A stretch of DNA of 64,000 nt. Source: Chryseobacterium sp. KACC 21268 (GTDB taxonomy: Bacteria > Bacteroidota > Bacteroidia > Flavobacteriales > Weeksellaceae). The stretch is from contig CP117875.1 of the NCBI GenBank assembly GCA_028736075.1, positions 2,356,001-2,420,000 on the forward strand, written 5' to 3'. A program made the position numbers and the translations under genes. The notes beneath the pieces are model-generated. The model had not been told where the DNA came from, searched no databases, and was given only the letters and a program-made list of their open reading frames with translations. Each line of letters opens with the position of its first letter. The first letter of the stretch is position 1. Of this stretch, positions 1-28,433 are shown in pieces.

Positions 1-138
1 GCAAAAATTGCAAATGCTCAAAAATTTATCAGCGCAGCAGACCTGCAAGATTTTTCTAACAAGTTATCTGAAATAGCTGATTTGAAGATAAAGCAGAATG
101 ATATTTTTATTAAAATATATTCTTTGCTCGGACAATGA
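1..138 (+). CDS. 3' end of a small protein upstream of the relaxase, probably a relaxosome accessory protein
   Basis: An open frame runs from base 1 to a TGA at 136-138 and gives the last 45 residues of a protein, ending ...IKIYSLLGQ. The stop overlaps the ATG of the relaxase (ATGA), so the two are probably translationally coupled. Genes in this position in Bacteroidetes elements usually encode the small MobA/MobC-type DNA-binding partner of the relaxase. The visible part is helical-looking and has no motif that settles the family, so the role is inferred from position only. Confidence 0.6.
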   Translation, partial: AKIANAQKFISAADLQDFSNKLSEIADLKIKQNDIFIKIYSLLGQ

Positions 139-1628
139 TCGTTAAAATAATGAAACCGGCGGGTTCCAGCTTTCCAGGGGTCAATTACAACGATAAAAAA
201 GTGAATAAAGGAATTGGGGAATTGATGCTGATGAAAAATTTTCCTTCGTTCATTAATGAAGCCAGTAGTCAGAAGGAGGTTCGGGATTATTTAAAATCAA
301 TTTCAAAAAACGAAAAAGTAAAGAAACCCCAATTTCACTCAGTCATTTCAACCAAGTTTCAGTGGCACAGCAAAGAAGAACTGAAAAATGTTGCAGAAGG
401 TTTTATGAGTGAAATGGGATACGGGACACAACCTTTCATTGTTGTATTTCATAAGGACACAGATAATAATCACGTCCACATTGTTTCCACAAGGGTTGAT
501 AAGCAATCCGGAAAGAAGATCGATGACAGTTACGAGAGGCTTAAAGCTCAAAAGGCATTATGTAATACAATGGGAAAATTGTACGGCCAGAGTCCAGAAG
601 CAGAATTGCACAAACTCCTAAATTACAAAATAAGTTCGTTCAGTCAATTGGAAACTTTGCTTCATAGAAATGGTTATAAAATAAACAGAAACACAAATGA
701 TGAAAATTTTTATAGCATTTTAAAAAACGGAGTCATACAGCGAACACTTTCAGGGAATCAAATTGTTTTCGACAATAGTAAAAGTGACAGCAGAGCCAGA
801 CAGATTAAAGCCATTCTGAATAAATATAAGGAACTGTATTCCAACAAAGTTTTCAAAGTGGAAGACAATAGGCGAAGTCAATCAATGTTACCACAAGAAA
901 AGATAGCTGACAGAGAAAATCTTTCAAAATCAAAAATTGAATTTGAAAGTGAGCTTCAGAAAAAGTTGAAAGATGTTTTCGGGATCGACATTGTATTTCA
1001 TCAAAAAGAAGGTTTAAAACCTTTTGGTTACACGTTGATAGACCATAAAACAGGTAGCGTCTACAAAGGGAGTGAGATTTTGAAAATGAATGAATTATTT
1101 GAATTCACTTCCGAAACTTTGGATAAAAAGCTTTTCGAAATCTTAAAAGATTATAACATTCCAAATCAGGAATCAAGAGAAATACTGCTGGAGTTTTTGA
1201 AAAAGCAATATCGGGAAACAGAGATTAAGGATTTTATGCTATTTGAAAATAGGGGAAAGAAAGATTTGGAAACCTACCGAAAAGTCCAGTTTGAAGTAAA
1301 GGATTTTATCAGAAATAACAAAAACACAAATGATGAAAAAAAAGATATTTCTATAACGACTGCTGAAGACGGAAAGCTGTATGCTGTTCATACCAGATTC
1401 CATTACGTGGTTGAACTTCAACCATTAATCGGAGAAAAGGAGTATCAAAAATTTCTAAATCCCATAGGCATAAATGAAGTGCAGACAGAAAACCGGACTG
1501 AAAATAATAAAAAAACAGAATTAAACAAAGCCGTCAACGAAATGCTATTTGAATGGATGAAAAGTTCAGGAACGGCAAAAGACCCTGCTGAAAACGAACT
1601 CAAGAAACGAAAGAAGAAGAGGCGGTAA
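135..1628 (+). CDS. Relaxase / mobilization nuclease
   Basis: A 497-residue relaxase that would nick the origin of transfer and lead the DNA strand into the recipient. Residues 100-117 carry the metal-binding histidine signature of the Relaxase family (PF03432): H106, then N-N-H-V-H-I-V with H113 and H115. Y18 is a possible nicking tyrosine. The C-terminal two thirds is charged and poorly conserved and ends in a run of Lys/Arg, as expected of a DNA-binding tail. It overlaps the upstream partner gene by ATGA and is followed after 69 bp by the ParA gene. The oriT should lie near or upstream of this operon; I could not define it here. Confidence 0.88.
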   Translation: MIVKIMKPAGSSFPGVNYNDKKVNKGIGELMLMKNFPSFINEASSQKEVRDYLKSISKNEKVKKPQFHSVISTKFQWHSKEELKNVAEGFMSEMGYGTQPFIVVFHKDTDNNHVHIVSTRVDKQSGKKIDDSYERLKAQKALCNTMGKLYGQSPEAELHKLLNYKISSFSQLETLLHRNGYKINRNTNDENFYSILKNGVIQRTLSGNQIVFDNSKSDSRARQIKAILNKYKELYSNKVFKVEDNRRSQSMLPQEKIADRENLSKSKIEFESELQKKLKDVFGIDIVFHQKEGLKPFGYTLIDHKTGSVYKGSEILKMNELFEFTSETLDKKLFEILKDYNIPNQESREILLEFLKKQYRETEIKDFMLFENRGKKDLETYRKVQFEVKDFIRNNKNTNDEKKDISITTAEDGKLYAVHTRFHYVVELQPLIGEKEYQKFLNPIGINEVQTENRTENNKKTELNKAVNEMLFEWMKSSGTAKDPAENELKKRKKKRR

Positions 1629-1697: not shown

Positions 1698-2381
1698 ATG
1701 ATCATCACTTTTGCCACCCAAAAAGGAGGAACCGGAAAAACAACATTGGCGATTGCTTTAGCCAATTATATTTCCACTAATTCCGAAATAAAAATCAATG
1801 TGTTTGATTTCGATTATCAGAAATCCTTTTACTACAAATGGAAAGAAGATGAAGTGTTGGAAATTCCAAAATTGTACGATGTTGAGATTATTGGTGAAGA
1901 TGATGGGCAGCCTTTTTCGGACTTTGATACTCTTATTGATCTGAAAGAAAGCGAGGAGATCAATCTCTTTGATCTGGCAGGAACACTTGATGCTAAATAC
2001 AGCGACTTATTGATATACAGCGATTTTATCGTGATCCCATTTGAATATTCCGATGTATCTGTAAAATCAACGTTGGTTTTTATCAATATGCTGGGATTAT
2101 TGGAAAGCGAGGCCGAAAGAATATTTATCCGTTCCAAATATGATAAAGGATACAAATACCTAAATCAGGAAGCAATGGACATTGAGCTGGCAAAATATGG
2201 AATGCTGCTGCCAAGTCCAGTATTCAAGAGAAACATCCTGCAAACTATTAATACCAGAAACCTGGCTGGCAAGCAAAAATATGCCGTAGAAAATACACTC
2301 GATGAACTTTTAAAGCATATCAATGAAAACTCAAAGATCAAAATAGAAATTCTGAAAAAGAAGGAAAAAGCCAAAGATTAG
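1698..2381 (+). CDS. ParA/MinD-type ATPase of the conjugation region (TraA-like)
   Basis: A 227-residue P-loop ATPase. The deviant Walker A motif KGGTGKTT lies at residues 9-16, with the signature first lysine K9. The following NVFDFDYQ segment (about 35-42) is the A' region and NLFDLAG (about 90-96) is Walker B. In Bacteroidetes conjugative elements a ParA-like protein (TraA) stands at the head of the tra genes, as here; it may position the element or its transfer machinery. A chromosomal partitioning role is less likely because no parB or parS-like gene follows. Confidence 0.85.
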   Translation: MIITFATQKGGTGKTTLAIALANYISTNSEIKINVFDFDYQKSFYYKWKEDEVLEIPKLYDVEIIGEDDGQPFSDFDTLIDLKESEEINLFDLAGTLDAKYSDLLIYSDFIVIPFEYSDVSVKSTLVFINMLGLLESEAERIFIRSKYDKGYKYLNQEAMDIELAKYGMLLPSPVFKRNILQTINTRNLAGKQKYAVENTLDELLKHINENSKIKIEILKKKEKAKD

Positions 2382-3130: not shown

Positions 3131-3451
3131 ATGAATCAAAAATTCAAAAAACACCAAATGATGAAAAAAATTTTAACCCTCGCTTTTGTAGTGATGGCAC
3201 TAACACCTGCATTTGCACAAGGCGGTGCAACAGCGATCTCGAACGCCGCCAACGACATTAAGGATTATTGGGATCCTATCAAACTAATCCTGAAAGCAGT
3301 TGGTGGATTGGTTGGTTTCATTGGAGGTTTGAGAGTGTATAACAAATGGACGAATGGCGACCAGGATGTCAACAAAGAGATCCTTGGTTATGGAGGAGCA
3401 ATGATCTTCCTGCTGGTAGTTCCGGAATTCGTAACCGCATTTTTTGCCTAA
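3131..3451 (+). CDS. traE: TraE family conjugal transfer protein (DUF4134)
   Basis: A 106-residue protein with a signal peptide ending at A-F-A-Q and two hydrophobic helices separated by a short polar loop. The ending VPEFVTAFFA and the segment VGGLVGFIGGLRVYNKW fit the DUF4134/TraE family, which resembles VirB2 pilin-type subunits in size and layout. Possible starts are 3131 or the double ATG at 3161/3164 (MMKKILTL), the second being more usual for the family. It is followed at once by traF. Confidence 0.85.
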   Translation: MNQKFKKHQMMKKILTLAFVVMALTPAFAQGGATAISNAANDIKDYWDPIKLILKAVGGLVGFIGGLRVYNKWTNGDQDVNKEILGYGGAMIFLLVVPEFVTAFFA

Positions 3452-3452
3452 G

Positions 3453-3779
3453 ATGGGATTCTATTTATACAAGGGGCTCAAAAAACCCCTTGTGTTTTTC
3501 GGACTGAAAGGGAAATACATTTTTTACGCAGTGGGTGTCATTGGCACAGGAGTCATTTTGGCGCTGGTATTATCGAAGTTTGGATTACTAGGTTCTTTAT
3601 TCGGACTCGCAATAACCGCAGGAGGTGTTTATCTGATCTTCAAAAGACAGGACAAATATGGGCTATATGATAAAACTAAAAATTTCGATCAGATCTTGAT
3701 CTTTCCAAAAAAATTAACCAACAAAAGACTTTTAAAGAATGATGAAACCGAAAGGTTAAATATGACGAATAAAAAATAA
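3453..3779 (+). CDS. traF: TraF family conjugal transfer protein (DUF4133, VirB3-like)
   Basis: About 108 residues, starting at ATG 3453 (MGFYLYKGLKKPLVFFGLKG); an in-frame TTG at 3444 would overlap traE and is not needed. Two adjacent hydrophobic segments at about residues 23-60 are followed by a basic cytoplasmic tail. The N-terminal Y-x-L-x-K-G-L-x-K-P-L-V-F-x-G-L-K-G pattern is typical of DUF4133. VirB3-like proteins sit in the inner membrane next to the VirB4 ATPase, which is encoded next. Confidence 0.85.
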   Translation: MGFYLYKGLKKPLVFFGLKGKYIFYAVGVIGTGVILALVLSKFGLLGSLFGLAITAGGVYLIFKRQDKYGLYDKTKNFDQILIFPKKLTNKRLLKNDETERLNMTNKK

Positions 3780-3790
3780 ATAAGTTCAAT

Positions 3791-6700
3791 ATGAAAAAGG
3801 AAAAACAAGCATTTAACATCCCTTTTATCGGGTATGATTATGCAAAAGATTTCAATTGGGATTTCGATGTTCTTTTCGGACAGTATGGAAATCCTATTAT
3901 TGGTATTAGGATAAAAAATATTGTAGAGCAGTATTCAGCAGATCCGGATACGTACCTCCATTTTCATACGGTCTTAAATCAGGTAGTCTCGATTATTGGT
4001 GAAGGAAGAATTGTCCAGAAGCTCGACATTTTTTCTAAAAAAAGATACACCGCAGAACAGTCCAATCAGTTTCTACAGCAAAAATATTCAGAACATTTTG
4101 AGGGCAGGCTTTTTAAAACCATCGAAACCGTGCTATTCTTCACGGATATTATCGATGACAAACTGAAAAAGAAAACTAAGCATTATCATTTTTCGGATAA
4201 AAGTTATAAGGAACTACGGGATAAGTGCCAGAAAGTATTGATGCTTTTGAAACAGAATAATTGTGAACCTGAGTTTTTATTTGAGAAAGATTTTGATTAC
4301 TACATTTCGGGAGTTCTGTCGATGCAGTTTACAGAAACTCCAACTTTTGATAATATAAAAAGCACCAACGAATTTTTGCAGATCGGAAATAGGATTGTGA
4401 AAAACATTGCCTATGTTGACGTAGAAAACATTGATCTGCCTTCAGAAATTGAGCCTTACTCAGTTTTAGGAGGTAACGGAGCTGCAGCTGAGACGGCGGT
4501 TGACAATTTTAGTTTCATCAATGAACTGGAAGACTACGAGACCATTGTCTACAATCAGATCATTACCATTCCCCTTCAGGCACAACAGCAAAGGGAGCTT
4601 GATAAAAAAAAGAAAAAACATGAAGGCGCGGCGAACAATTCTCCGTCCAACGCGATTATAGCAGATGAAATTCAGACCCTGCTTCATAACATTGCAACCG
4701 ATGGACAGCTCGTCGTCAATGCTCATTTTTCCATCCTTTTTTCAGCACACACATTGGAGAAAATGGAAAATATTCAGTCGATGATTGAAAACAAGCTTTT
4801 CACGAAAGGAATTATTGTTTCTAAAAATGCCTACAACCAGTTAGAACTCTGGCGATCAGCCATTCCGGGCAATGGAACAGAACTTAGGGAATACGATCTA
4901 TTTATGACGACAAGCGAAGCGGCCTTGTGTTTTTTTTTTAAAGAAAGTTACCCGGTCAATGAAGAATCCAATTTCTACCTGAGATTTACAGACAGACAGG
5001 GCGTTCCGCTAAAAGTAGATCCTTCGGATTTACCGATGAAAACAGGAAGAATAAACAACAGGAATAAGTTTGTTTTAGGACCCAGTGGGTCAGGCAAGAG
5101 TTTTTTAATGAATAATATCATCGAGCAATATCTGACCTACAATTATGATGTAGTCATTGTTGATACAGGAGATTCTTATTCAGGAACTTGTAAATACAAA
5201 GGAGGAAGATACATTCAGTACACCGAAGAAAAACCGATTACTATGAATCCTTTTCTAATGGATAAGAAAGAGTTCAATATCGAAAAAATCGAATTTTTAA
5301 CCAACCTGATCTTCCTGATTTGGCAAGGTCCTGACTCTTCAATGTCATCAGCACAAAAGTCCATATTAGACAATGTATTGATGTCGTATTATCATCAGTA
5401 TTTTAACTCAGGACAAGAATGGTATCAAAATAAAACTTCGGAAGAACTTATTTTATATCTCAATAAATATAACATTCAAGAAGAGGATCTATTCACAGAA
5501 TATGAGAATGAAGCCAAAGGACATCAAAACTATTATGACATTTTGGGGATTACATTCGATGCCAGTTCTAATGAAATCAAGGAAGCCGGAAGAAAATTAT
5601 TAAAATTTTATCATCCTGATAAAAACATCAACAATCCGGAATATGAAAGTGAGAATTTTTATAAAGTCTATGAAGCGTATGATACGCTGAACGATGAAGA
5701 AAGAAGGAAAATATACAATGAAACGCAGTTGATCTTAATTAAGTCGAATGACATCATCAAGCAGACCAGATCATCTGAGCAGTGGAATGAATCTTTTAGA
5801 AAAGCTATCATCAGAAAAATTAAAGAATTAGAAGAAAAGCTAGTTGTAACAGAACTTTCGTTCAATGGATTTTATGATTACTGCGATCAATTTCTCCCCA
5901 TTTACCTGAATAATAAGAAACACAATATTATAGAAAAGGAATTTAATCTGCGCACCTTTTTATTTGTGCTGAAAGATTTTTACAAAGGCGGAAGGTATGG
6001 AACAACATTAAATGAAAGTGCAGACAATACGCTTTTTGACGAATCATTGATCGTTTTTGAAATTGATAATGTAAAGGACAATCCCAAACTCTTTCCGATT
6101 GTCACGCTCATTATTATGGACACTTTTATTCAGAAAATGAGACTCAGAAAAGACCGCAGAAAAGCACTCATCATCGAAGAAGCGTGGAAGGCAATCGCAA
6201 GTAAACTGATGGGAGGCTACATTCTTTACTTGTATAAAACCGTAAGGAAATTTTGGGGAGAAGCAGTAGTAGTCACTCAGGAACTCGATGACATTATTGG
6301 AAATGCGGTGGTAAAAGATTCCATCATCAATAATTCGGACACGTTTATACTGCTTGACCAGACAAAGTTCAAAGACAACTTTGATAAGATCGCTTCATTG
6401 CTTTCACTCAATAAAGTAGAGCAAAACAAGATTTTTACCATTAATAATCTCAATAATAAATTCGGAAGAAGTCGTTTTAAAGAATTTTATCTGAAAAGAG
6501 GTTCCAAAGGAGAGGTGTACGGAAACGAGGTTTCTTTGGAGCAGTATCTGACCTACACAACAGAAAAACCTGAAAAGTCTGCTGTTGAGTATTATGTACA
6601 TCGATATGGCAATTATGATGAAGCATTGCGCAAAATAGTTGATGATTTGAAAATCTTCGGAGACAGTCTCGAAAATCTTGTATCGCTCGTGAATTTATAT

Positions 6701-6856
6701 CAAAATCCACTGGATCAAAAAATCAATTCCTTTTACGGAATGATGAAAAAAGAACTTAAAGGGAAGAATGTCTTCAAGACCATCTCACAGGAATTAGAAG
6801 ACCGAAATATCAGTTTTTCAGAATTAATAAATAAAAAACAATATGAAAAAGTTTAG
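3791..6856 (+). CDS. traG: TraG family VirB4-type conjugation ATPase with an inserted DnaJ domain
   Basis: A 1021-residue ATPase that would power assembly of the mating channel. The N-terminal half is the CagE/TrbE/VirB-type region; Walker A is GPSGSGKS at 430-437 and Walker B is ALIIEEAW at about 792-799. Between them, residues about 578-650 form a clear J domain: YYDILGI at 581-587, helix II ending in the HPD motif at 608-610, and F-Y-K-V-Y-E-A-Y-D-T-L plus D-E-E-R-R-K-I-Y in helices III-IV. TraG proteins of CTnDOT-type elements are about 830 residues; the extra length is accounted for by this insertion and nearby sequence. The gene overlaps the next one by 14 bp. Confidence 0.93.
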   Translation: MKKEKQAFNIPFIGYDYAKDFNWDFDVLFGQYGNPIIGIRIKNIVEQYSADPDTYLHFHTVLNQVVSIIGEGRIVQKLDIFSKKRYTAEQSNQFLQQKYSEHFEGRLFKTIETVLFFTDIIDDKLKKKTKHYHFSDKSYKELRDKCQKVLMLLKQNNCEPEFLFEKDFDYYISGVLSMQFTETPTFDNIKSTNEFLQIGNRIVKNIAYVDVENIDLPSEIEPYSVLGGNGAAAETAVDNFSFINELEDYETIVYNQIITIPLQAQQQRELDKKKKKHEGAANNSPSNAIIADEIQTLLHNIATDGQLVVNAHFSILFSAHTLEKMENIQSMIENKLFTKGIIVSKNAYNQLELWRSAIPGNGTELREYDLFMTTSEAALCFFFKESYPVNEESNFYLRFTDRQGVPLKVDPSDLPMKTGRINNRNKFVLGPSGSGKSFLMNNIIEQYLTYNYDVVIVDTGDSYSGTCKYKGGRYIQYTEEKPITMNPFLMDKKEFNIEKIEFLTNLIFLIWQGPDSSMSSAQKSILDNVLMSYYHQYFNSGQEWYQNKTSEELILYLNKYNIQEEDLFTEYENEAKGHQNYYDILGITFDASSNEIKEAGRKLLKFYHPDKNINNPEYESENFYKVYEAYDTLNDEERRKIYNETQLILIKSNDIIKQTRSSEQWNESFRKAIIRKIKELEEKLVVTELSFNGFYDYCDQFLPIYLNNKKHNIIEKEFNLRTFLFVLKDFYKGGRYGTTLNESADNTLFDESLIVFEIDNVKDNPKLFPIVTLIIMDTFIQKMRLRKDRRKALIIEEAWKAIASKLMGGYILYLYKTVRKFWGEAVVVTQELDDIIGNAVVKDSIINNSDTFILLDQTKFKDNFDKIASLLSLNKVEQNKIFTINNLNNKFGRSRFKEFYLKRGSKGEVYGNEVSLEQYLTYTTEKPEKSAVEYYVHRYGNYDEALRKIVDDLKIFGDSLENLVSLVNLYQNPLDQKINSFYGMMKKELKGKNVFKTISQELEDRNISFSELINKKQYEKV

Positions 6857-7496
6857 CATTCTATTTTTAGGATTTGGAAGTTTATTGTGTGCTCAAAACA
6901 CCTACATCGATCCTACGGTAACGGCAGCAATGATTCTATATTCTGAAAATCTAAAAGCCAAACAGAATGAGGTCATCGAAGAAACTTCAAAACTAAAAGA
7001 TGCCCAGACGTGGGTCGGAACCCAGATGGTTGCAGCTAACGATATTCAGAATAAAATTCTGAAGGGCTTAAAAGAAGTTTCCGGGACACTGCAAAATGGT
7101 ATTCAGGTGCAGGAGATCTACTCGGAACTCAATAAGTGTTACAATTACTCAGCACAAGTAGGACAATTAGCATCAGCACATCCGCAATACGCAATTTTTG
7201 GGGTGAAAGCTTCCCAAAAAACCTACGAGCAAAGCCTGAAAATAGTGACAGATGTTTCTGACATCCTCGCATCCGGAGAGTTGAATCTGGCTACTGCAGG
7301 AGACCGCTACAAAATCCTTCATAATATTTCCGGTAATGTCAAAAATCTGAAGTTGTGGCTTTTGGCCATCAAATTAAGATTGGAGAAAGCAAACCGATTG
7401 GGATTCTGGAATTCCATCAATCCATTTGCAGGCTACATCAATACAGACAAAGCGATTGTTGAGGATATTATGGATCGGTATAAAAGGAATTTTTAA
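6843..7496 (+). CDS. Secreted conjugation protein, TraI-like (first of four related proteins)
   Basis: A 217-residue protein with a signal peptide cleaved near L-C-A-Q, followed by mostly helical sequence with coiled-coil character (about 35-100). It occupies the TraI position (DUF4141-like) downstream of TraG. It starts inside the end of traG, so it is translationally coupled. It ends with YINTDKAIVEDIMDRYKRNF, a motif that recurs at the ends of the next three proteins. The function is not established; a periplasmic scaffold similar to VirB5 is a reasonable guess. Confidence 0.75.
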   Translation: MKKFSILFLGFGSLLCAQNTYIDPTVTAAMILYSENLKAKQNEVIEETSKLKDAQTWVGTQMVAANDIQNKILKGLKEVSGTLQNGIQVQEIYSELNKCYNYSAQVGQLASAHPQYAIFGVKASQKTYEQSLKIVTDVSDILASGELNLATAGDRYKILHNISGNVKNLKLWLLAIKLRLEKANRLGFWNSINPFAGYINTDKAIVEDIMDRYKRNF

Positions 7497-7506
7497 AACC
7501 AAAAAG

Positions 7507-8229
7507 ATGAAATCGAGGAACGAGATTCGCCGACTTTATGGAGGCAAAAATAAGTTGTTTTTAAGTTTGCTATTTACTGCAATCTACGTCGTTTTAACTT
7601 CTTCCGGTGGCGGTTCCACACCAGCTTGGCAACAGGAAAATGTATCATTTCCGATGATGGATTTGGAGATCAATGCCACAATGAAAGAACACGACAGGCA
7701 AAAAGAGATGCGGGAAAAGCAAACGCTGAATGCGACAGTGGAAACCGCCAATAGAACCCAATGGAACAACTTCAAAGACAAGATTACCAAAATTCAGGAT
7801 CGATTGAGGATAGTTTCATTTGCCATCCAGGCAATACCGACAGGAATAGCAATGAGCAGGGAAATAACAAAAATAACAAACGATCAGACTGCTATTATCA
7901 ATGAAATAAATGATGCTCCTTATTCCATTATAGCCGTTTTGCCTTCTCAGGTTCAGTTTGTGGATGATCTGCAAATGGTGACCAGACTCGTAACCGGAAT
8001 TATTTTGTCTTATGGAGCCATCAATCAAATGGAGAAATCGGAACGCAAAGTACTATTGGGTTATGCTTTAGGCGAAGTGAAAACATTGAGCAGGAATTCT
8101 ACGCATATGCTTTTGAAAATACGGGATATAAAAGCCAAAGTAAAACGAAATAAAAGAGCCTTTCAGTATTATGTCAACAGAGACAAGCAAGTGGTTGAAA
8201 GCATAATGAATAACATCAAGTCTTTTTAG
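7507..8229 (+). CDS. Conjugation-region protein, second of the four related proteins
   Basis: About 240 residues from ATG 7507; an in-frame ATG at 7426 would overlap the previous gene by 70 bp and adds a non-signal sequence, so I prefer 7507. A hydrophobic stretch near residues 18-32 could be a signal anchor. The rest is helical and ends YVNRDKQVVESIMNNIKSF, matching the tail of its neighbours. No enzyme motif is visible. It is likely an accessory part of the mating apparatus. Confidence 0.65.
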   Translation: MKSRNEIRRLYGGKNKLFLSLLFTAIYVVLTSSGGGSTPAWQQENVSFPMMDLEINATMKEHDRQKEMREKQTLNATVETANRTQWNNFKDKITKIQDRLRIVSFAIQAIPTGIAMSREITKITNDQTAIINEINDAPYSIIAVLPSQVQFVDDLQMVTRLVTGIILSYGAINQMEKSERKVLLGYALGEVKTLSRNSTHMLLKIRDIKAKVKRNKRAFQYYVNRDKQVVESIMNNIKSF

Positions 8230-8297
8230 AAATGAAATCGAAGATTCGGCGGAGCCAATGTATTTCACAAATTGCTTAATGATAAAATAATAAAGAT

Positions 8298-8966
8298 ATG
8301 AGCAAAAAAGCAATTCTTCTTGGAGTTTTATTCTTCACTGTTGCATCCGTAAAAAGCCAGCAGATAGTTATCAATGACAAACTTTTATCACAGATCACCG
8401 TAAACCACGGTGTTCGATTAGGAAGTGAGCAAACTTTTCTGGATTCCTATGAAAAGCAAAAAGAATTGTATGATGATATCAATAATAAAATCACGCAGAT
8501 CATAGCGATTCAGGAATACATCTATCAACAACTGAAAAATGTGAATTCGGCGCTTACCCAGAGTAAAAAACTTATCTACCTCTATCAATATTTGGGTAAA
8601 ATAGTGACGAACTCCAATAAAATGCTGGATCTATCCGCACAGCATCCTGAATATTCGGTACTCATTTCAAAATATTATGTTGAAATAGGCAAGCAGACGA
8701 TGAAGCTTCAGCAGGAAGTTACCCAGGACATTCTCAATGAAGACAAAGACTTTCTGATGGATGCAATGGATAGGGAAATGCTTATTGAAAAGATCTTTAC
8801 CCGTGTCAGAAATATCAATGGGAATATTTTATACATCAATCTGCGATTAGAGAATGCCAAGAAAATTCCTTACCTGTATCAAGTTCCTGTTCTCCGCAAC
8901 TACATCAATATAGACAAAGCCATTGTTGGCGACATCATCACTAAATACAATCACATCTTTAATTAA
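8298..8966 (+). CDS. Secreted conjugation protein, third of the four related proteins (paralogue of the first)
   Basis: A 222-residue protein with a signal peptide (cleavage near V-K-S-Q) and helical body. It is the closest relative of the protein at 6843-7496: similar length, similar spacing of helices, an A-Q-H-P-E-Y / S-A-H-P-Q-Y match in the middle (AQHPEYSVL here, SAHPQYAIF there), R-L-E-x-A-x-K/N late in the chain, and the ending YINIDKAIVGDIITKYNHIF. This supports an internal duplication. Confidence 0.7.
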   Translation: MSKKAILLGVLFFTVASVKSQQIVINDKLLSQITVNHGVRLGSEQTFLDSYEKQKELYDDINNKITQIIAIQEYIYQQLKNVNSALTQSKKLIYLYQYLGKIVTNSNKMLDLSAQHPEYSVLISKYYVEIGKQTMKLQQEVTQDILNEDKDFLMDAMDREMLIEKIFTRVRNINGNILYINLRLENAKKIPYLYQVPVLRNYINIDKAIVGDIITKYNHIFN

Positions 8967-8970
8967 AATT

Positions 8971-9803: not shown

Positions 9804-11039
9804 ATGAATAAAACGATAACATTAACTTTTTGCTTATTAGCAATTCTTTTGCCTGTTATGGGATTTGCCCAAACAGATGCCGATTATAGCAATCTACTCC
9901 AATTTTTAAAAGGTGACGGTGCTTTTGAGAAATGGTTTATGGAGGTTTTTACAAAGCTGGATAACAGCGTACAGGACAGTGCGCAAGGTTCCGCTTTGGT
10001 AGGAAAAGCAATAGGCGGTTTAGGCGCTCTGATGTACCTCGGGTACATGGGTTGGCAAATGGCAGCCGGAGATAGAGAATGGGAAATTACCCCAATGCTG
10101 AAACCCATTCTCATAGGATTTACCCTTGTTTACTGGAGCGGATTTGTCAGTATGATTCAAGCACCATTTGAGGCCATTGCCGAACCAGGGATTTCAATTT
10201 TCAGCGAGATAGAATCAGAAGTTAACGACTTAAGGGTCGAAAGATTTAAGAAGCAGCAACAATTACTCGATGCCGTCATCAAACTGAAAGCGGAAGAAGA
10301 TGCCAAACAGGAAGTTATTGAAAATACCACTGAAGATGCCGATGATTCGTGGTTTGATATCAGTGAGGGATTGGATAAATTGATTCAGCCTATCAAAGAA
10401 TGGTCAATACGAATGGAATTCCAAATGCAAAAATTAGTAGCGGAACTCATTGAATTTGTCTGCTTGTCCATTCTTCGCATCTGCGTGTATCTTATTTTCT
10501 TCATTCAAAAAATATGGGCGTATATACTCATCATTTTAGGACCCATAGCCGTAGGGATGGCTTTGATTCCCGGATTTGAAAATTCTTTATACAGCTGGGT
10601 ATCAAAGTTTATCAATATCAATCTCTACACTTTTGTTGCCTACACCATCATCAACATCGGTCAGCAACTGATCGCTTCGGGTTATACAATGGAGATTGAA
10701 AGATACAATACGCTTTTATCCAACGGAACCATTACCAACTTAGACGCTTTGATGGTATACGTTTCAAATTCCGGAATGATCTACAATCAGCTGTTTACGT
10801 GTGTTGCCTATGTGGTCACAGGAATTGGAGTTTTAATGACTCCAACTATTGCAGACAGTATTGTTTCTGCGGGAGGAGCAGGATCAATGACCAAAATGAA
10901 AAATGCAGCGGGAAAAATAGCAAGCAGTGCCAAAACAGCAATATTGGCGGCTAAAACAGGAGGTGCTTCTGTCGCAGCGAGTGCAGCAGCAGGCTCAGCT
11001 TCGGGAAGAGTTAAGGAAGCGATGAAAAACGGAAAATAA
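9804..11039 (+). CDS. traJ: TraJ family conjugative transfer membrane protein (VirB6-like)
   Basis: A 411-residue protein with a signal peptide (G-F-A-Q near residue 24), a hydrophobic helix near 65-80, a charged coiled-coil-like segment at about 130-180 and then a cluster of membrane segments between about 210 and 360. The Ala/Gly/Ser-rich C-terminus (A-A-K-T-G-G-A-S-V-A-A-S-A-A-A) is typical of TraJ proteins. VirB6-like proteins form the inner-membrane channel for DNA. It stands in its usual place before traK. Confidence 0.85.
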   Translation: MNKTITLTFCLLAILLPVMGFAQTDADYSNLLQFLKGDGAFEKWFMEVFTKLDNSVQDSAQGSALVGKAIGGLGALMYLGYMGWQMAAGDREWEITPMLKPILIGFTLVYWSGFVSMIQAPFEAIAEPGISIFSEIESEVNDLRVERFKKQQQLLDAVIKLKAEEDAKQEVIENTTEDADDSWFDISEGLDKLIQPIKEWSIRMEFQMQKLVAELIEFVCLSILRICVYLIFFIQKIWAYILIILGPIAVGMALIPGFENSLYSWVSKFININLYTFVAYTIINIGQQLIASGYTMEIERYNTLLSNGTITNLDALMVYVSNSGMIYNQLFTCVAYVVTGIGVLMTPTIADSIVSAGGAGSMTKMKNAAGKIASSAKTAILAAKTGGASVAASAAAGSASGRVKEAMKNGK

Positions 11040-11057
11040 TCTCAAAAATTACCATAA

Positions 11058-11672
11058 ATGCTTATTAAAAACATAGAACAAAGAATTAAAATCAACAAGG
11101 TTTTTTCAATCTCAACCATTGTTTTTGCTGTTTTCATTGTCATTGCAGGGTTTTTCTTTGCGTACAGAATGATCGAGGATTCCAGAAGATCCATTTACAT
11201 TTTAGATAATGGGGTTCCGGTTCTTGCCAAGCAAACGGACGTACTTCTCAACCGACCTGTTGAATACAAAGCGCAGATAGAACTTTTCCACAGACTGTTT
11301 TTCACACTCGCTCCAGATGATACCTATATTAAGGATAATATTCAAAAGTCATTATATCTCATTGATGACAGCGGGAAAAAAGAATATACCAATTTAAAGG
11401 AAAAAGGTTTTTACAATCAGATCATCGCCTCCAGTTCAATGGTCAGTATCCATACCGATTCAATTGCACTCAATATGGAACAAAAGAAATTCTCTTTTTT
11501 CGGGAAACAAATGATCACAAGAAAATCCTCTGTCATTACCAGAATGCTCATAACCGAAGGTTTCTTTGAAGACATCATCAGAAGTCCCAATAATCCTCAC
11601 GGTGTGATTCTTAAAAACTGGCGAATCATCAATAACGAAGAACTATCCAATCAAAACAAAAATTCTTACTAA
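11058..11672 (+). CDS. traK: TraK family conjugative transfer protein (VirB8-like)
   Basis: A 204-residue protein with a short cytoplasmic N-terminus, one membrane helix at about residues 17-38, and a periplasmic domain of about 160 residues. Size, topology and the place between traJ and traM are those of TraK, the VirB8-like bridge between inner-membrane and outer parts of the channel. The N-terminal IEQRIKINKVFSI pattern is like that of other TraK proteins. Confidence 0.85.
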   Translation: MLIKNIEQRIKINKVFSISTIVFAVFIVIAGFFFAYRMIEDSRRSIYILDNGVPVLAKQTDVLLNRPVEYKAQIELFHRLFFTLAPDDTYIKDNIQKSLYLIDDSGKKEYTNLKEKGFYNQIIASSSMVSIHTDSIALNMEQKKFSFFGKQMITRKSSVITRMLITEGFFEDIIRSPNNPHGVILKNWRIINNEELSNQNKNSY

Positions 11673-11673
11673 A

Positions 11674-12027
11674 ATGAATACGACATTAAAACAAAAGGGT
11701 CAGAAATGGATACTATGGGCGGTTCAAAATCCGAAGAAATTCTTCACTTGTGCAATGATTTTACTGTCAGTTTCCTTTATAGGATCAATTATTCAAGGTG
11801 TTTTTTTTCCTTCCGAAACGGCATTTAAAATAAGACCTCCGGTTCTTTATTCAAACAATAAGACGAGTCAAAATTTGCCCATCAACAATGATAAAGAAAT
11901 GGAAAAAATAGTGAATGAACTCAAGACTTTAAAAGTAAAAAGAGACCAAAATTCTTTACAAAAAGAAGACAGCTTACGAATCGACTACCTGTTTAACCAA
12001 TACCAAAATTTAAAAAATGGACATTAA
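11674..12027 (+). CDS. Small membrane protein in the traL position
   Basis: A 117-residue protein with one membrane helix at about residues 25-45, then a Lys/Glu-rich tail that looks like a short coiled coil (about 75-115). It lies between traK and traM, where CTnDOT-type elements have the small TraL protein. The sequence alone does not prove that it is TraL. Its last 11 bp overlap the traM start. Confidence 0.65.
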   Translation: MNTTLKQKGQKWILWAVQNPKKFFTCAMILLSVSFIGSIIQGVFFPSETAFKIRPPVLYSNNKTSQNLPINNDKEMEKIVNELKTLKVKRDQNSLQKEDSLRIDYLFNQYQNLKNGH

Positions 12028-13231
12028 AAAGATCAATTTTAAAGATAAGAAATACGTTTTGCCACTTTTGGCTTTGCCGTTTCTTTTTCTTTTCGGCTAC
12101 GTGGGAGCGCAGTTTATGAAGGAAGATGCTTCTGCAAAGGATAAGCCCAAAGAACTGTCTCTTTCATTAGGCGAAACGCAGGATTCTATTATGACCAAAA
12201 ACGATGCTTACGATGAATTCTTTAAAAAAGAGGATAACCGAACAATGCTTGGAGGTTTGGATAAGGAATCAGACAGTTTACTAAGCTATGATGATCAATT
12301 ATCATTAGACCAAAAAAGAAAAATAGATTCATTAAAAGCGGTCAGCGGAAGACAGAATAGATATCAGGCAAAAGGAGATCAATCTTCATATTACAATCCC
12401 AATCAACAGCAAGGAGATGATAAAGATTATAAAAGGTCTTCAGAGATCATCAAAATGCTAAATGAAAAATCTTATGGAAATGAAAATAACAAATACTCTG
12501 ATACACAAAAAGAAAAACCTCAGTCCGCCCAACCAGATCCTGTAAAATATCTGAAAGAGCAGATGCTGGTAATGGATTCATTAGAAAAATCCCGTGATCC
12601 TGAATACCAAAATAAACTCGCAGCAGAACAGAGATTGAAATCAAATAAGGATAAGATGAACGATTTTCTCAATTCAACTTTCAATGTGAGCAAATCCGGA
12701 ATCAACAGCGGTTTTAATGCTTTCTATAAGGAAAAGGAAAATAGTTTTATCAAAGCGGTCATTGACGAAAACAACAAAGGATTTTTAGGAAGCAGGATCA
12801 GGTTCCGCTTGTTGGAAGACATCTTTGTTGGAAACAAAAAGATTGGCAAAGGTTCTATACTATATGGTCAAATTTCGGGATTTTCAATGCAAAGAGTCAA
12901 TCTCAATATTGTTTCGGTCTTTACAAAAGGAGAGATCTATCCGGTCAATCTATCCATTTACGATGTTGACGGGATGAAAGGATTGTACGTTCCACAAAGT
13001 GTTTTTAGAGATATGATGCGGGAAATGGGTAGCAACTCAGTTCAAGGAATACAGATGGATATGGGCGGAAAAGGATTTTTTTCAAGTATTGGAAGCAGCC
13101 TTTTTACTTCGACGTCTAAATCCATCGCCAATCTGATCAAAGAAAATAAAGCAAAACTGAAATACAACTCATATGTCTTTTTGATCGACGAAAAACAATT
13201 GAAAGATTCACAAAACCAACAAAAAAAATAA
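12017..13231 (+). CDS. traM: TraM family conjugative transposon protein (VirB10-like)
   Basis: A 404-residue protein: one membrane helix at about residues 14-32, a long polar, Lys/Asp/Gln-rich linker to about residue 220, and a folded C-terminal domain (I-R-F-R-L-L-E-D-I-F-V-G-N-K-K-I-G-K-G onward) that resembles the beta-rich domain of TraM/VirB10. Such proteins span the periplasm and join the inner and outer rings of the channel. Overlaps the preceding gene by 11 bp and is followed by traN after 4 bp. Confidence 0.87.
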   Translation: MDIKKINFKDKKYVLPLLALPFLFLFGYVGAQFMKEDASAKDKPKELSLSLGETQDSIMTKNDAYDEFFKKEDNRTMLGGLDKESDSLLSYDDQLSLDQKRKIDSLKAVSGRQNRYQAKGDQSSYYNPNQQQGDDKDYKRSSEIIKMLNEKSYGNENNKYSDTQKEKPQSAQPDPVKYLKEQMLVMDSLEKSRDPEYQNKLAAEQRLKSNKDKMNDFLNSTFNVSKSGINSGFNAFYKEKENSFIKAVIDENNKGFLGSRIRFRLLEDIFVGNKKIGKGSILYGQISGFSMQRVNLNIVSVFTKGEIYPVNLSIYDVDGMKGLYVPQSVFRDMMREMGSNSVQGIQMDMGGKGFFSSIGSSLFTSTSKSIANLIKENKAKLKYNSYVFLIDEKQLKDSQNQQKK

Positions 13232-13235
13232 AACA

Positions 13236-14105
13236 ATGAGAACTTTATTATACACCCTTTTAATATTCACAGCTCAATTTTTCACGGCTCAAACTGCAAC
13301 CAAAGAACAGATTGTTTCCGATTTACCTGAGATTGAAATTACCGAAGGCATCAACCTGCACATCATTTCGCCGGAACCCATTCAGTACGTGGATTTGTCA
13401 ACAGAAAAACTGACTGGAGATTTGCCTGCTACAAACATTGCCAGAATAAAGATCACAGACCATCCTGATTCTGACGAGAAAGGAAAAATCAATATACCTT
13501 CCGTTTTTTTTAATGGAAATACTATTGGGATCATTACCGTTGTCGCACAATCTTTCATTGCACAGTACAAAGTTGTTTATCGAAATCAGGATAACCTCAA
13601 TACGATTACCAATATTCATATACAGCCCGAAGCGATGCAGCCTGTAGAATTTGATAAAATGGTGTTCTCTAATCTTGAGTTGAGAAAATTTGCAATGGAT
13701 ATTATTCGAAAAAAATCTGAAAAAAATCCGATTAGAGAAGAAAAAAATCTAAAACTCAGCTTCCAGCTCAATAATGTCTATGTGATGAGTGATTATATTT
13801 TTTTAGATATGACCATCAAGAATAATTCTAATCTGAGCTATGATATTGAGGATTTGAAATTCTCCTTGGAAGACAAAAAAATACACAAAGCCACCAATAA
13901 CCAAAGTGTAGATCTAACACCCATTTTACAGCTCAATCCGCAGAAACACTTCAGAAAAAATTTCAGGAATATTTATGTTTTCAAAAAATTCACTTACCCA
14001 AACAGTAAAGTGATGATGATTCGCTTGATTGAAGAACAGCTCTCGGGGCGCACCATAGAAATGAAAGTCATCTATTCAGATATTCTGAAAGCAGATACCT
14101 TTTAA
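13236..14105 (+). CDS. traN: TraN family conjugative transposon protein (DUF4138, VirB9-like)
   Basis: A 289-residue secreted protein with a signal peptide ending near F-T-A-Q and a beta-rich mature part. The segment EGINLHIISPEPIQYVDLST and the later YVMSDYIFLDMTIKNNSNLS are like the two beta domains of TraN (DUF4138), the VirB9-like protein of the outer-membrane ring. It directly follows traM, the usual order. Confidence 0.87.
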   Translation: MRTLLYTLLIFTAQFFTAQTATKEQIVSDLPEIEITEGINLHIISPEPIQYVDLSTEKLTGDLPATNIARIKITDHPDSDEKGKINIPSVFFNGNTIGIITVVAQSFIAQYKVVYRNQDNLNTITNIHIQPEAMQPVEFDKMVFSNLELRKFAMDIIRKKSEKNPIREEKNLKLSFQLNNVYVMSDYIFLDMTIKNNSNLSYDIEDLKFSLEDKKIHKATNNQSVDLTPILQLNPQKHFRKNFRNIYVFKKFTYPNSKVMMIRLIEEQLSGRTIEMKVIYSDILKADTF

Positions 14106-14115
14106 TATTAAGACT

Positions 14116-14463
14116 ATGGAAAATTTTACAGTTATGCTGTGTTTTGCACTGGTGATATTACTATTTACCTACCATTCTGTTGCTATAATTATTATTTATA
14201 AAAAACGAAAAGAATTTATTATTGCCTATAAAAGGGTGTTAAACCTTAAAGATTGGTGTGATAAAATATCTGAATAGCCAGGTCACTCATACATTATCGA
14301 GAGTGTCGAAAAAAGAGGAAATGAATTAATTGCTCAATTGAATCTGTTGAATGCTAATCTTACTGGAATACAGGAACAGCAAAAAACATTACAGGAAGCG
14401 CAACAAAAGCTGCATAGCAATCTATTAGAAGAACACGAATTACTTAATCAATATTATTCTTAA
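14116..14463 (+). pseudogene. Small membrane/coiled-coil gene interrupted by an in-frame TAG
   Basis: From ATG 14116 the frame encodes 53 residues with one membrane helix (F-T-V-M-L-C-F-A-L-V-I-L-L-F-T-Y), meets TAG at 14275-14277, and then stays open in the same frame for 61 more codons to TAA at 14461-14463. The downstream part is a Gln/Leu/Glu-rich coiled coil. The final TAA overlaps the next gene's ATG (TAATG), the arrangement expected of an intact 115-codon gene coupled to the coupling-protein gene. I read this as a nonsense mutation; a sequencing error or readthrough cannot be excluded. The position fits the TraO-TraQ part of CTnDOT-type operons, but I do not recognise the family. Confidence 0.75.
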
Positions 14464-16454
14464 TGCAAGAACAACAACATCAAATAAAGATCTATGGCTT
14501 TCTGCAAAAAGCAGTGTACGCTGTGGTTGCATTAGACTGTGCTTCGCTTTTTTATCTGAATGCTGATGTTCCGGTAGTGTCCAACTTGCTGAAAAATTTT
14601 TCAAAGCTGAGCTTTATCTACCCACCTATCAATGCCAAATTTGCGACATTGATTCTTATTGGATTGGTAGCTGTCGGAACAAAAGCCAAGAAAAAGAAAG
14701 ACTTAAATATCGCAACAGAAATTGTCGTTCCTATGATTGCGGGATTGCTGATGATTTTTTCTTCATTAGTCTGGCAAAATGAGGCAGGAAATGCACAGCT
14801 TCCAAAAGTATTTCCCGGATTTAATCTCTATCAGGTAATCTATGCTATTCTTTCTTTTTTAGGGTCAGTTATTCTCCAAATGGGTGCAGACAGTATTTCT
14901 AAACTGATGCAGCAAAAAATGGGAAAAGACCGATGGAACGTGGAGGAAGAATCTTTTGACCAAAATCAAGAACTGGTAACGTCGGACGTCACAATCAACA
15001 TTCCATATTTATTCCGTTACAAAAACAAGAGCAATAAAGGCTGGATGAACATCAATCCTTTTAGAGGAACAATGGTCATCGGAACACCAGGTTCTGGAAA
15101 GTCGTTTGGTGTCATCAATCCTGCCATAAGACAATTGATCGCCAAAGGTTTCTGTCTCTGCATCTACGATTTTAAATTTCCTGATTTAGCACAGATTGCA
15201 TACTACCATTATTTGTTGAAAAAAAGTAAGGAGGCAGAATACGATTACAATTTCCACGTCATTAATCTCAACGAGGTTGAAAAATCAAAAAGAGTCAATC
15301 CGTTTCATAAAAAGTACATCCAAACTTTGGCAGAAGCTCAGGAAATGGCAGAATCGATGGTTTCATCTTTACAGAAAGGAGGTTCGAGTTCAGGAGGTGG
15401 TTCCGAAGCTTTCTTTACCCAATCTGCGATTAATTTCCTTTCATCCTGTATTTATTTTTTTGCAACATTCGAAAATGGAAAATATTCTGATTTGCCTCAT
15501 ATTCTTTCTTTTATGAACAGAAGCTATAAAGAAATTTTCGATACTCTTTTTACCAATGAAGAAATTTTCTCTTTGCTGTCACCTTTCAAGACGGCCTATG
15601 ACAACAAAGCATTTGACCAATTGGAAGGACAAATCGGAACACTCAAAATTTTCCTTTCCCGATTGGCAACCAAAGAAAGTTTTTGGGTGTTTTCAGGAGA
15701 TGAAGTGGAATTGAAGATAACCGACAGAGATAATCCTTCTATTATTATTCTGGCATCAGACCCGGGAACACAGGATATTAATTCTGCATTGTATTCTTCG
15801 GTATTAAACAGGACTTTAAGATTGATCAATTCCAAACACAATTTGCCGGGAGGAATTATTGCAGACGAATTTCCTACAATTTATATTCATAAAATTGACA
15901 ACATTGTAGCCACTGCGAGAAGCAACAGAGTTGCTGTTTTATTAGGCCTTCAGGAGCTTCCACAACTTCGACAATTTTACAAAAAGGAAGTTGCTGATAC
16001 GATTTCTGCCATTGTTGGAAATATTCTTTCCGGTTCTGCCAGAGACAAAAATACATTGGATTGGTTAGAGAAACTATTTGGGAAAATTAAACAGAAATCA
16101 TACTCGCAATCTATTTCCCAACAAGGAACAACCACTAGCATTAATGAAAAAATGGACAATATGATTCCTGCAGGAAAAATCGCAGCCTTGAAAACAGGAG
16201 AGATGGTTGGGATGATAGCGCAAGGAGAAGAAAATGATGTGCAAGAATATAAAACGTCCGCAGTGAATGGTAAAATTAATTTAGATATGAAAGCGATTCA
16301 AGAAGAAGAAAAAAACTATGTGAAAATGCCGTCATATTACTCTTTTGTAGATAAAAAGGGGGTTAATCGCAAAGAAGAGGTGTTGATGACCAATTTTAGA
16401 AAAATCAATAAAGAAGTTGAACTCATTGTGAATGAAAATATAAAAGCTGCATAA
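14463..16454 (+). CDS. VirD4-type coupling protein (TraG/TraD-like)
   Basis: A 663-residue type IV coupling protein that would hand the relaxase-DNA complex to the channel. Three or four membrane helices lie within residues 15-140; Walker A is GTPGSGKS at 207-214, the Walker B region is GGIIADEFP near 462-470, followed by the conserved ARSNRVAVLLGLQELPQL segment. The start is ATG 14463 overlapping the stop of the broken gene before it. A 79-residue frame at 15277-15516 is a shadow. Confidence 0.92.
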   Translation: MQEQQHQIKIYGFLQKAVYAVVALDCASLFYLNADVPVVSNLLKNFSKLSFIYPPINAKFATLILIGLVAVGTKAKKKKDLNIATEIVVPMIAGLLMIFSSLVWQNEAGNAQLPKVFPGFNLYQVIYAILSFLGSVILQMGADSISKLMQQKMGKDRWNVEEESFDQNQELVTSDVTINIPYLFRYKNKSNKGWMNINPFRGTMVIGTPGSGKSFGVINPAIRQLIAKGFCLCIYDFKFPDLAQIAYYHYLLKKSKEAEYDYNFHVINLNEVEKSKRVNPFHKKYIQTLAEAQEMAESMVSSLQKGGSSSGGGSEAFFTQSAINFLSSCIYFFATFENGKYSDLPHILSFMNRSYKEIFDTLFTNEEIFSLLSPFKTAYDNKAFDQLEGQIGTLKIFLSRLATKESFWVFSGDEVELKITDRDNPSIIILASDPGTQDINSALYSSVLNRTLRLINSKHNLPGGIIADEFPTIYIHKIDNIVATARSNRVAVLLGLQELPQLRQFYKKEVADTISAIVGNILSGSARDKNTLDWLEKLFGKIKQKSYSQSISQQGTTTSINEKMDNMIPAGKIAALKTGEMVGMIAQGEENDVQEYKTSAVNGKINLDMKAIQEEEKNYVKMPSYYSFVDKKGVNRKEEVLMTNFRKINKEVELIVNENIKAA

Positions 16455-26819: not shown

Positions 26820-28394
26820 ATGAAAGTTGCTGATCTATATATTCGCGTGTCAACTGACGAACAAGCAGATAAAGGATATTCACAACGTGATCAGGAGGAG
26901 CGTTTACGCAAGCATTGTTCTTCTCTGAATATAACGATTGACAAAATTATTTATGAAGATCATTCTGCCAAAACTTTTGAGAGGCCTGAATGGAAAAAAT
27001 ACCTGTTTAATATTAGAAAAGGAAGAGGTTCTAAACAAAACAAGTTCTTATTTTTTACAAAATGGGATCGATTCAGCCGTAATACCAGTGAGGCTTATCA
27101 GATGATATCCAATCTTAATAAATTATGTATTACGCCTCAAGCTATTGAACAACCGTTAGATTTACGTGTACCCGAAAATAAACTGTTGTTAGCAATATAT
27201 TTATCAACGCCTGAGGTAGAAAATGACAGGAGGGCATTGAATGTGACTTATGGAATGAGAAGAGCGATTAAAGAGGGTAGAATGATGGGTATCGCTCCAT
27301 ATGGCTATATTAACAGATGTACAGAAGACGGCCGTAAATATGTAGCAGTTAAAGAACCTGAGGCAACAAACATGATATGGGCCTTTAAGCAGGTGGCGAA
27401 AGGACATCTACCTACAGCAGTTATTTTAAAAGAAATGAACAGGAGAGAAGGCAGAAAGCTGACGAAAAATTCATTTATGGATGGTTTGAGAAATATAGCC
27501 TACTGCGGAAAATTATTTCTAAAGGCGTATAACGATGAGGAGGAAAAAATTGTTGAAGGAAAACATGAAGCACTGATCTCTGAAGAACTTTTCATGAAAG
27601 TTCAAAGGGTTCTTAATCGTAAAAGTAATAAGGATGCTTTCTTACCAGCAGGAAGGATAATAAATGAAGAACGCTATCCTTTGAGGGGATTACTATTATG
27701 CCCACAATGCAATAAAACTCTTACTGCCAGTAGTGCTAAGGGAAGAAGCAAGCATTACTACTATTACCATTGTACAACCTCATGTGGTTTCAGGCATAAT
27801 TCTGAAATAGTTAATGATCTTTTTGTCGAAGAATTATCAAAATTTAGATTCAGCATCGGTGCTGAGAAAATATTAAAAACAATTTTAGAACAGAACTTTT
27901 CAATAGTTTCAAATGGTCTAAATGATGAAAGAAAGGTTTTGCAAAATAAACTTAATGCTATTGAAGGAAGAATTGACAAAGCAAGAGATATGTATCTTGA
28001 AGATAAATTGGATGAAGAAGATTTTAAGAGAATTAAAATGAAGTATAAAGTGGAAATAGAAGATATCAACTTTAAATTAAATTCATTAAAAAATTCTGGT
28101 CATACTGATGATATTGAGAAGAAGATGACTCAAGCATTAAATGCCATTGTCAACATCTCTGAAAGATATAATAACGCAAGTACAATTGACAAGCGTGCAA
28201 TTGTTGGTTTGATATATCCTGAAAAGTTAACTTTCGATGGCGAGTATTTTCAAACCACAAAAATTAACAGTTTGGCTGGTAATATTGCTTTGATTAACAA
28301 GGAGTTAGGAAATAAAAAAAACCGACAAAGAAGTGAAAAAACTTCAAATGTCGGTCTTGTGACCTCGACAGGATTCAAACCTGTAACCTTCTGA
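26820..28394 (+). CDS. Large serine recombinase (integrase) of the element
   Basis: A 524-residue large serine recombinase that would integrate and excise the element. The resolvase domain holds YIRVSTDEQ with catalytic S11; the Recombinase domain follows (GMRRAIKEGRMMGIAPYGY at about 145-162); the zinc ribbon has C294, C297, C318 and C322; a coiled coil covers about 365-425. The last residues (from about 514, V-T-S-T-G-F-K-P-V-T-F) are read from the antisense strand of the tRNA-Arg gene, and about 498-512 from the tRNA's terminator. The C-terminus has therefore probably been set by the integration site. Confidence 0.92.
   Translation: MKVADLYIRVSTDEQADKGYSQRDQEERLRKHCSSLNITIDKIIYEDHSAKTFERPEWKKYLFNIRKGRGSKQNKFLFFTKWDRFSRNTSEAYQMISNLNKLCITPQAIEQPLDLRVPENKLLLAIYLSTPEVENDRRALNVTYGMRRAIKEGRMMGIAPYGYINRCTEDGRKYVAVKEPEATNMIWAFKQVAKGHLPTAVILKEMNRREGRKLTKNSFMDGLRNIAYCGKLFLKAYNDEEEKIVEGKHEALISEELFMKVQRVLNRKSNKDAFLPAGRIINEERYPLRGLLLCPQCNKTLTASSAKGRSKHYYYYHCTTSCGFRHNSEIVNDLFVEELSKFRFSIGAEKILKTILEQNFSIVSNGLNDERKVLQNKLNAIEGRIDKARDMYLEDKLDEEDFKRIKMKYKVEIEDINFKLNSLKNSGHTDDIEKKMTQALNAIVNISERYNNASTIDKRAIVGLIYPEKLTFDGEYFQTTKINSLAGNIALINKELGNKKNRQRSEKTSNVGLVTSTGFKPVTF
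28313..28355 (-). terminator. Intrinsic terminator of the tRNA-Arg gene
   Basis: On the minus strand the stem ACCGACA/TGTCGGT (28321-28327 with 28349-28355) is extended by GAAGT/ACTTC (28330-28334 with 28341-28345) and followed by a run of seven or eight U (28314-28321). It begins 5 bases after the tRNA 3' end. It lies inside the recombinase reading frame. Confidence 0.75.
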
Positions 28395-28433
28395 GCCGTA
28401 ATCAGATGCGCTATTCAGTTGCGCCACGAGGCC
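28360..28433 (-). tRNA. tRNA-Arg (anticodon ACG)
   Basis: Minus strand, 74 nt. Acceptor stem GGCCTCG with CGAGGTC and discriminator A; anticodon stem TCTGA/TCAGA with loop TTACGGC giving anticodon ACG; T arm GGTTTGAATCC. CCA is not encoded. The 3' end faces the conjugative element, as expected where a tRNA 3' end is the attachment site, although large serine recombinases more often use other targets. Confidence 0.95.

Follow-up and report, generated by a model that had tools for sequence, protein, structure and literature searches.

Introduction

The closest described relatives of the ATPase reported here are the TraG proteins of Bacteroides conjugative transposons (TIGR03783, PF19044), with which it shares the ATPase itself, the Walker motifs and the neighbouring tra genes. 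Translocation in conjugation requires prior unfolding of the relaxase, according to PMC10711112 (available in part), which names VirB11 as a candidate unfoldase. J-domain proteins of class C share just the J domain with DnaJ and may carry it anywhere in the chain (PMC8215388, available in part).

The stretch of DNA analysed, hereafter the window, comprises 64,000 nucleotides from Chryseobacterium sp. KACC 21268. Here we describe a TraG-type (VirB4 family) conjugation ATPase encoded within it, in which a J domain is built into the ATPase part of the chain. In the literature searched (titles and the starts of abstracts, with the surveys Barriot 2020 and Malinverni 2023 outside scope) no TraG or VirB4 with a J domain was found, and the one paper pairing TraG, a DnaJ domain and conjugation is, in the part available, an unrelated expression study. 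The combined DnaJ and TraG architecture is already visible in precomputed Pfam annotations.

Results and discussion

A J domain lies between the Walker motifs of TraG

By every feature tested, the TraG of the window is a member of the TraG/VirB4 family. The 1021-residue open reading frame scored 471.8 bits against TIGR03783 (curated cut-off 261.55) and matched PF19044 (E 7e-129) as two stretches flanking an insert, with Walker A and Walker B both intact. An earlier note, made from the sequence alone, had placed a J domain at about residues 578–650, between the two Walker motifs, with its HPD motif at residues 608–610, and had proposed a PF00226 search as a check. Both the domain and the motif were confirmed; the match to PF00226 is significant and covers the full profile (positions 1–63 of 63, 65.7 bits, cut-off 27.8). 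In a genome-wide DnaJ search, which returned four places, the TraG insert ranked third at 70.8 bits.

The predicted structure is consistent with this assignment. The J domain is modelled as a four-helix J fold, matching the J domain of DNAJB1, within a model of a single chain, not a hexamer, that is of moderate confidence overall (mean pLDDT 71.8, pTM 0.50). By sequence and predicted fold, the TraG of the window thus counts as a J-domain protein of class C. On either side of J is a helical arm, the upstream one having predicted helices at residues 550–558 and 564–576. J and its arms take the place of a short loop that lies between the two Walker motifs, in the all-helical portion of the ATPase. 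At that site the aligned J-less TraGs of the Bacteroides type show a loop of some 10 residues, or else an insert unrelated to this one. Likewise, the VirB4 of Thermoanaerobacter (4ag5) has at the aligned place a loop of about 15 residues (about 158–172 of the listed sequence) and no domain. The profile alignment to TrwK, the VirB4 of R388 (8rtd), does not reach the insertion site.

Table 1. Features of the window that bear on the J-domain TraG, with positions counted from the first nucleotide of the window.
Feature	Position	Strand	Residues or size	Remarks
Relaxase (MobA/VirD2-like)	135..1628	+		PF03432, E 2.7e-20; likely the translocated protein
ParA-like ATPase	1698..2381	+		PF01656, E 3.6e-9
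DUF4134 and DUF4133 genes	3131..3779	+		PF13572, PF13571
TraG-type ATPase of conjugation (VirB4 family), containing the J domain	3791..6856	+	1021 aa
Walker A, GPSGSGKS	5078..5101	+	430–437	Invariant in a 49-row alignment of relatives
Upstream arm of insert	5411..5521	+	~541–577	Missing from J-less TraG
J domain (PF00226)	5528..5719	+	580–643	E 4.1e-18
HPD motif	5612..5620	+	608–610	Within the J domain, between helix II and helix III
Downstream arm of insert	5732..5854	+	648–688	Missing from J-less TraG; predicted helix 662–683
Walker B end, LIIEE	6167..6181	+	793–797	No variation at E796 or E797 across the 49 rows
traJ-like, traK-like, small ORF, traM, traN	9804..14105	+		PF12508, PF13595 over cut-off
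VirD4-like coupling protein	14463..16454	+		PF10412, PF02534 over cut-off
Large serine recombinase, likely right end of element	26820..28394	+		PF00239, PF07508

Setting of the gene in an apparent integrated conjugative element

A relaxase and a coupling protein are encoded close to traG, and the whole has the look of an integrated conjugative element. The DUF4134 and DUF4133 genes go by the names TraE and TraF. Within the traJ-like to traN cluster, TIGR03782 scored well below its cut-off and TIGR03779 and TIGR03780 just below theirs, and the traK-like call rests on a gene order shared with annotated relatives; the coupling protein scored 522 bits against NF041326, below the cut-off of 900. 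The 3' end of the recombinase gene overlaps a tRNA-Arg (28359–28433, minus strand, identified by ARAGORN), suggesting integration at tRNA-Arg. The left end of the element lies outside the window; a search of the window and the 40 kb upstream for a long duplicate of the tRNA-Arg end gave none.

A similar tra gene order is present on two plasmid relatives, one from Chryseobacterium and one from Sphingobacterium faecium. Directly after traG (6843–9801) the window encodes four consecutive proteins of 217–292 residues with no Pfam match over cut-off, and both plasmids encode four hypothetical proteins at the same place. Further downstream (20789–25990) lies a protein of 1733 residues combining an Eco57I-type methylase and a SNF2-type helicase, which is likely cargo.

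The HPD motif is conserved and the J domain is under selection

Conservation of the HPD motif was read residue by residue in 108 genome copies, namely the window copy and 107 of the 111 other J places in genomes of the same family. The four omitted from the 112 places comprise three in one genome (G123) and one in another (G246), with a J score equal to that of a copy from the respective genome that was read. All 108 have HPD, across 85 distinct J regions in which the adjoining sites vary. Among database proteins it is present in 142 of the 143 examined, a set that excludes one J protein of another kind (P0144, 567 residues), the exception being a protein of 625 residues (P0023) that reads YPD; for proteins listed from the first protein search described below the count is 119 of 120, the remaining one reading YPD. 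Ten columns between residues 579 and 645 are invariant (Y582, L585, H608, P609, D610, N612, Y630, L633, R639 and Y642), most of which we take to be signature positions of J domains.

Selection was estimated by pooling dN/dS over 31 pairs without shared sequences. The J domain (residues 578–647) gave 0.061 (bootstrap 0.039–0.087), about half the values of the arms (0.127 for residues 540–577 and 0.125 for the downstream arm). For the other parts of TraG the values were 0.049 (N-terminal part), 0.022 (ATPase core) and 0.169 (C-terminal tail). These values indicate that selection maintains the J domain, more strongly than it does the linkers and less strongly than the ATPase.

The earlier note had regarded relatives with the insert and no HPD as a sign of decay. 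The counts above go against decay for nearly all members; three sequences of a sister lineage, together with the YPD protein, do fit it. The first of the three is the one TraG of the J type, out of 113 in the family genomes, that is without the full domain (genome G022, L235:914-3904). It is 63% identical in the ATPase end and has an open frame, with a J-like remnant that retains YYEVLGI, a stretch resembling helix II and KRAYD, has no HPD and matches PF00226 at E 0.089, below the cut-off. Two database proteins (P0145 and P0146), with 84% and 82% identity to this TraG across the region searched, share the remnant and its lack of HPD. Together these sequences make up a long-branched sister group to the remaining J-domain TraGs, their exact placement being unsure. 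Most simply, a working J domain was captured once, long ago, and the contact with Hsp70 was later lost once. Since this lineage keeps an open TraG frame, recruitment of DnaK is dispensable in at least one line.

The loss of HPD in one sister lineage and the YPD of the 625-residue protein are also what might be expected of a passenger, that is, a J domain picked up by accident that is now neutral or serves only as a spacer. Against this, dN/dS in the domain is lower than in its own linkers, HPD is kept in every genome copy read and the domain is retained in 112 of the 113 TraGs of the type; we consider the passenger reading largely refuted and highly improbable. A chance or decayed domain was rejected on the E-value, the conservation of HPD and the dN/dS.

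One clade of TraGs acquired the domain

A protein search with residues 560–690 returned 267 proteins, and in all 120 of those listed a DnaJ domain is combined with a TraG domain; the same combination is present in 23 of the 24 proteins obtained when a distant member served as query. The 131-residue J region was found whole at 112 places in the 296 family genomes, the weakest of these matches having E 2.6e-32 and the lowest identity being 43%, and the next matches in these genomes (E 4.8e-17 or worse) are short frames of ordinary J proteins. Among 395 genomes across the phylum, 3 carriers were found at E 1e-18 or better, all in the same family as the window. Carriers include Chryseobacterium, Epilithonimonas, Halpernia, Vaginella, Frigoriflavimonas, Capnocytophaga, Cloacibacterium and Elizabethkingia, as well as the Chryseobacterium and S. 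faecium plasmids mentioned above.

J-less members of the clade were sought with a query from the ATPase end without the insert, hence without selection for J. This query identified the 113 TraGs of the J type in 93 of the 296 family genomes, and the number carrying J was obtained by matching genome and place to the J-region search. In the order sample, all 17 ATPase matches with at least 78% identity lie at J places, and the other 47 are at most 54% identical. In the named genomes 21 of at least 80 loci have J, all at 68% identity or higher; the other 59 loci among the matches listed (at most 49% identity) have no J by a custom J profile, and PF00226 was absent from the four J-less TraGs scanned with Pfam (L005, L168, L183 and L185). 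The first of these (L005, G000:C1:2991987-2994461, minus strand) is a second TraG in the window's own genome, canonical and 841 residues long, indicating that two types of conjugation motor gene coexist there. The earlier note had spoken of TraG proteins in general. A J domain in the motor ATPase is borne out, but the wording took in too much, since the domain is a feature of one clade and canonical TraG is without it.

When a tree was built from the ATPase with the insert removed, a single branch (SH-aLRT 100) separated all 41 J-bearing rows from the others, and the J state requires only one change, a gain. The nearest relatives of the J clade are TraGs with a short loop, mainly from Sphingobacteriaceae. 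The tree, from a quick search without bootstrap, holds 93 rows (41 with J, 26 with a long insert other than J and 26 with a short loop) and excludes 11 near-duplicate loci and loci without a TraG frame over 700 residues; its sampling of J is biased, 25 of the 41 J rows (13 proteins and 12 loci) coming from J-region searches.

At the same site the Bacteroidales TraGs (L167–L179, L181, L208, L215, L218, L219 and similar) carry other inserts, variable in length, mostly charged and some 40–150 residues longer than the short loop. The possibility that these are diverged J domains was rejected, as they gave no match to the custom J profile and the one scanned with Pfam (L168) gave no match to PF00226. 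The insertion site thus tolerates additions, and one clade put a J domain there.

Such a site could be a fast-changing docking arm, of which J is one version that serves as a binding surface, with stimulation of Hsp70 secondary. The variable charged inserts of the Bacteroidales, the fast change of the arm residues adjoining J and the 82–84% identity at which two HPD-less members keep the insert region relative to the third are all consistent with a docking function, and in the related ATPase VirD4 substrates are recruited by the all-alpha domain (PMC12624023, available in part). A surface alone would not, however, require HPD to be invariant across J regions that fall to 43% identity with that of the window, and we regard the docking arm as quite unlikely.

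Two further observations concern individual loci. In 7 of the 107 J-domain TraG loci fetched (L014, L020, L079, L098, L109, L144 and L147) the gene is split near residue 375–388, every time at the same domain junction, into an N-terminal frame and a frame with the ATPase and J; several database proteins of about 606–693 residues resemble these split frames. In addition, a TraG from a record titled as a Clostridia metagenome-assembled genome (L172) groups with those of Bacteroidales, reflecting either transfer or a binning error.

The host's DnaK is the candidate partner

The contacts of a J domain with DnaK are described in the part of PMC8215388 available: R22, K26, R27, K48 and K51 place J on DnaK, with position 48 in E. 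coli forming a salt bridge to the substrate domain of DnaK, and H33, P34 and D35 act on the DnaK linker, SBD and NBD. In the J-domain TraGs, the helix II positions 22, 26 and 27 (DnaJ numbering) are lysine or arginine in 108, 108 and 105 of 108 copies, respectively. Speaking against such a contact, position 48 is tyrosine or phenylalanine in 99 of 108, with no lysine among the residues listed for it, and position 51 is mostly aromatic (100 of 108); the host's own DnaJ has lysine at position 48 and alanine at position 51.

A single DnaK-type Hsp70 is encoded in the genome, as is a single GrpE, the latter adjoining DnaJ. A second, weak Hsp70 match is an open reading frame of 343 residues, presumably MreB-like judging from its start. 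Neither window positions 1–28500 nor the 20 kb before the window yielded a separate gene for a J protein or an Hsp70. With a single DnaK-type Hsp70 in the genome and none beside the tra genes in that stretch, no candidate partner other than the housekeeping DnaK emerged. The HPD motif and the basic helix II positions lend good support to recruitment of Hsp70 by the J domain of TraG, whether for a substrate or for the machine itself, and we regard it as probable. Such recruitment would fit the suggestion of the earlier note that the ATPase couples channel assembly or substrate unfolding to DnaK.

Proposed role at the base of the channel

We propose that this TraG is at once a VirB4 motor and a class C J protein that would recruit the host DnaK at the base of the channel, with the relaxase as the likely client; we judge the chances of this whole proposal to be evenly balanced. 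The J domain would capture the host's single DnaK in its ATP state and trigger hydrolysis beside a client at the cytoplasmic base of the channel, a position for J that is inferred from the VirB4 family only. The likeliest client would be the relaxase, which needs unfolding for passage, although this is a weaker inference than the binding of DnaK. DnaK could then hold or unfold segments of the relaxase while the coupling protein and TraG feed them in.

The genome gave no match to the VirB11 family (T2SSE, PF00437) over the cut-off, with two weak ones below it, elsewhere, so the type IV secretion system seems to be without the ATPase proposed as a substrate unfoldase. The need for relaxase unfolding, this apparent absence of VirB11 and the kept HPD and basic helix II positions together favour the relaxase at the channel base as the client of DnaK. 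To our knowledge, the J-less TraG system of the same family is likewise without VirB11. Because J-less TraGs serve many elements and VirB11 is missing there too, the J domain is not simply a substitute for VirB11.

The same evidence for a working J domain (the PF00226 match, HPD, dN/dS and the basic positions) would equally suit the main rival, in which DnaK is recruited to build, remodel or dismantle the machine, acting on TraG folding, on oligomers or on subunits of the secretion system. SV40 large T antigen and auxilin act on complexes, and remodelling of the machine would resemble them. J is, moreover, found on the motor and not on the relaxase or on the coupling protein, the usual substrate receptor (PMC12624023, available in part), and disassembly of oligomers is among the jobs of bacterial Hsp70 (PMC8215388, available in part). 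J-less TraGs, however, presumably assemble without J, if their assembly is assumed, and we hold remodelling to be somewhat unlikely.

Returning to recruitment of DnaK for the relaxase, its broader form would be that a class of conjugative elements in Flavobacteriia, with relatives in Sphingobacteriia, uses the Hsp70 of the donor to power or prepare the translocation of the relaxase, the J co-chaperone that arms DnaK at the entrance of the channel being the VirB4 motor. We put this forward tentatively, as a possibility. A conserved and selected co-chaperone module within the motor makes a role of DnaK testable by a single amino-acid change.

Comparison with known J-domain systems

The class C proteins DjlA and TopJ have the J domain in common with TraG, and TopJ models match TraG residues 579–643. 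We know of no DjlA- or TopJ-like class C protein that is a conjugation ATPase. For translocation machines the parallels are Sec63, which works with BiP, and Pam18, which works with mtHsp70; both hold a J domain at the mouth of a translocon, where the Hsp70 acts on the passing chain. The J domains of Sec63 match TraG residues 580–642 by sequence (E 0.0014). Sec63 and Pam18 are, however, separate membrane proteins on the receiving side, whereas in TraG the J domain is inside the motor and on the sending side. If the proposal is true, TraG would be a bacterial case among translocation machines with a J domain at the pore, and Hsp70 would be part of a bacterial type IV secretion motor. In the union of a J domain and a hexameric ATPase in one chain, TraG resembles SV40 large T antigen, although the latter is a eukaryotic viral helicase with an N-terminal J domain and is not homologous to TraG as a whole.
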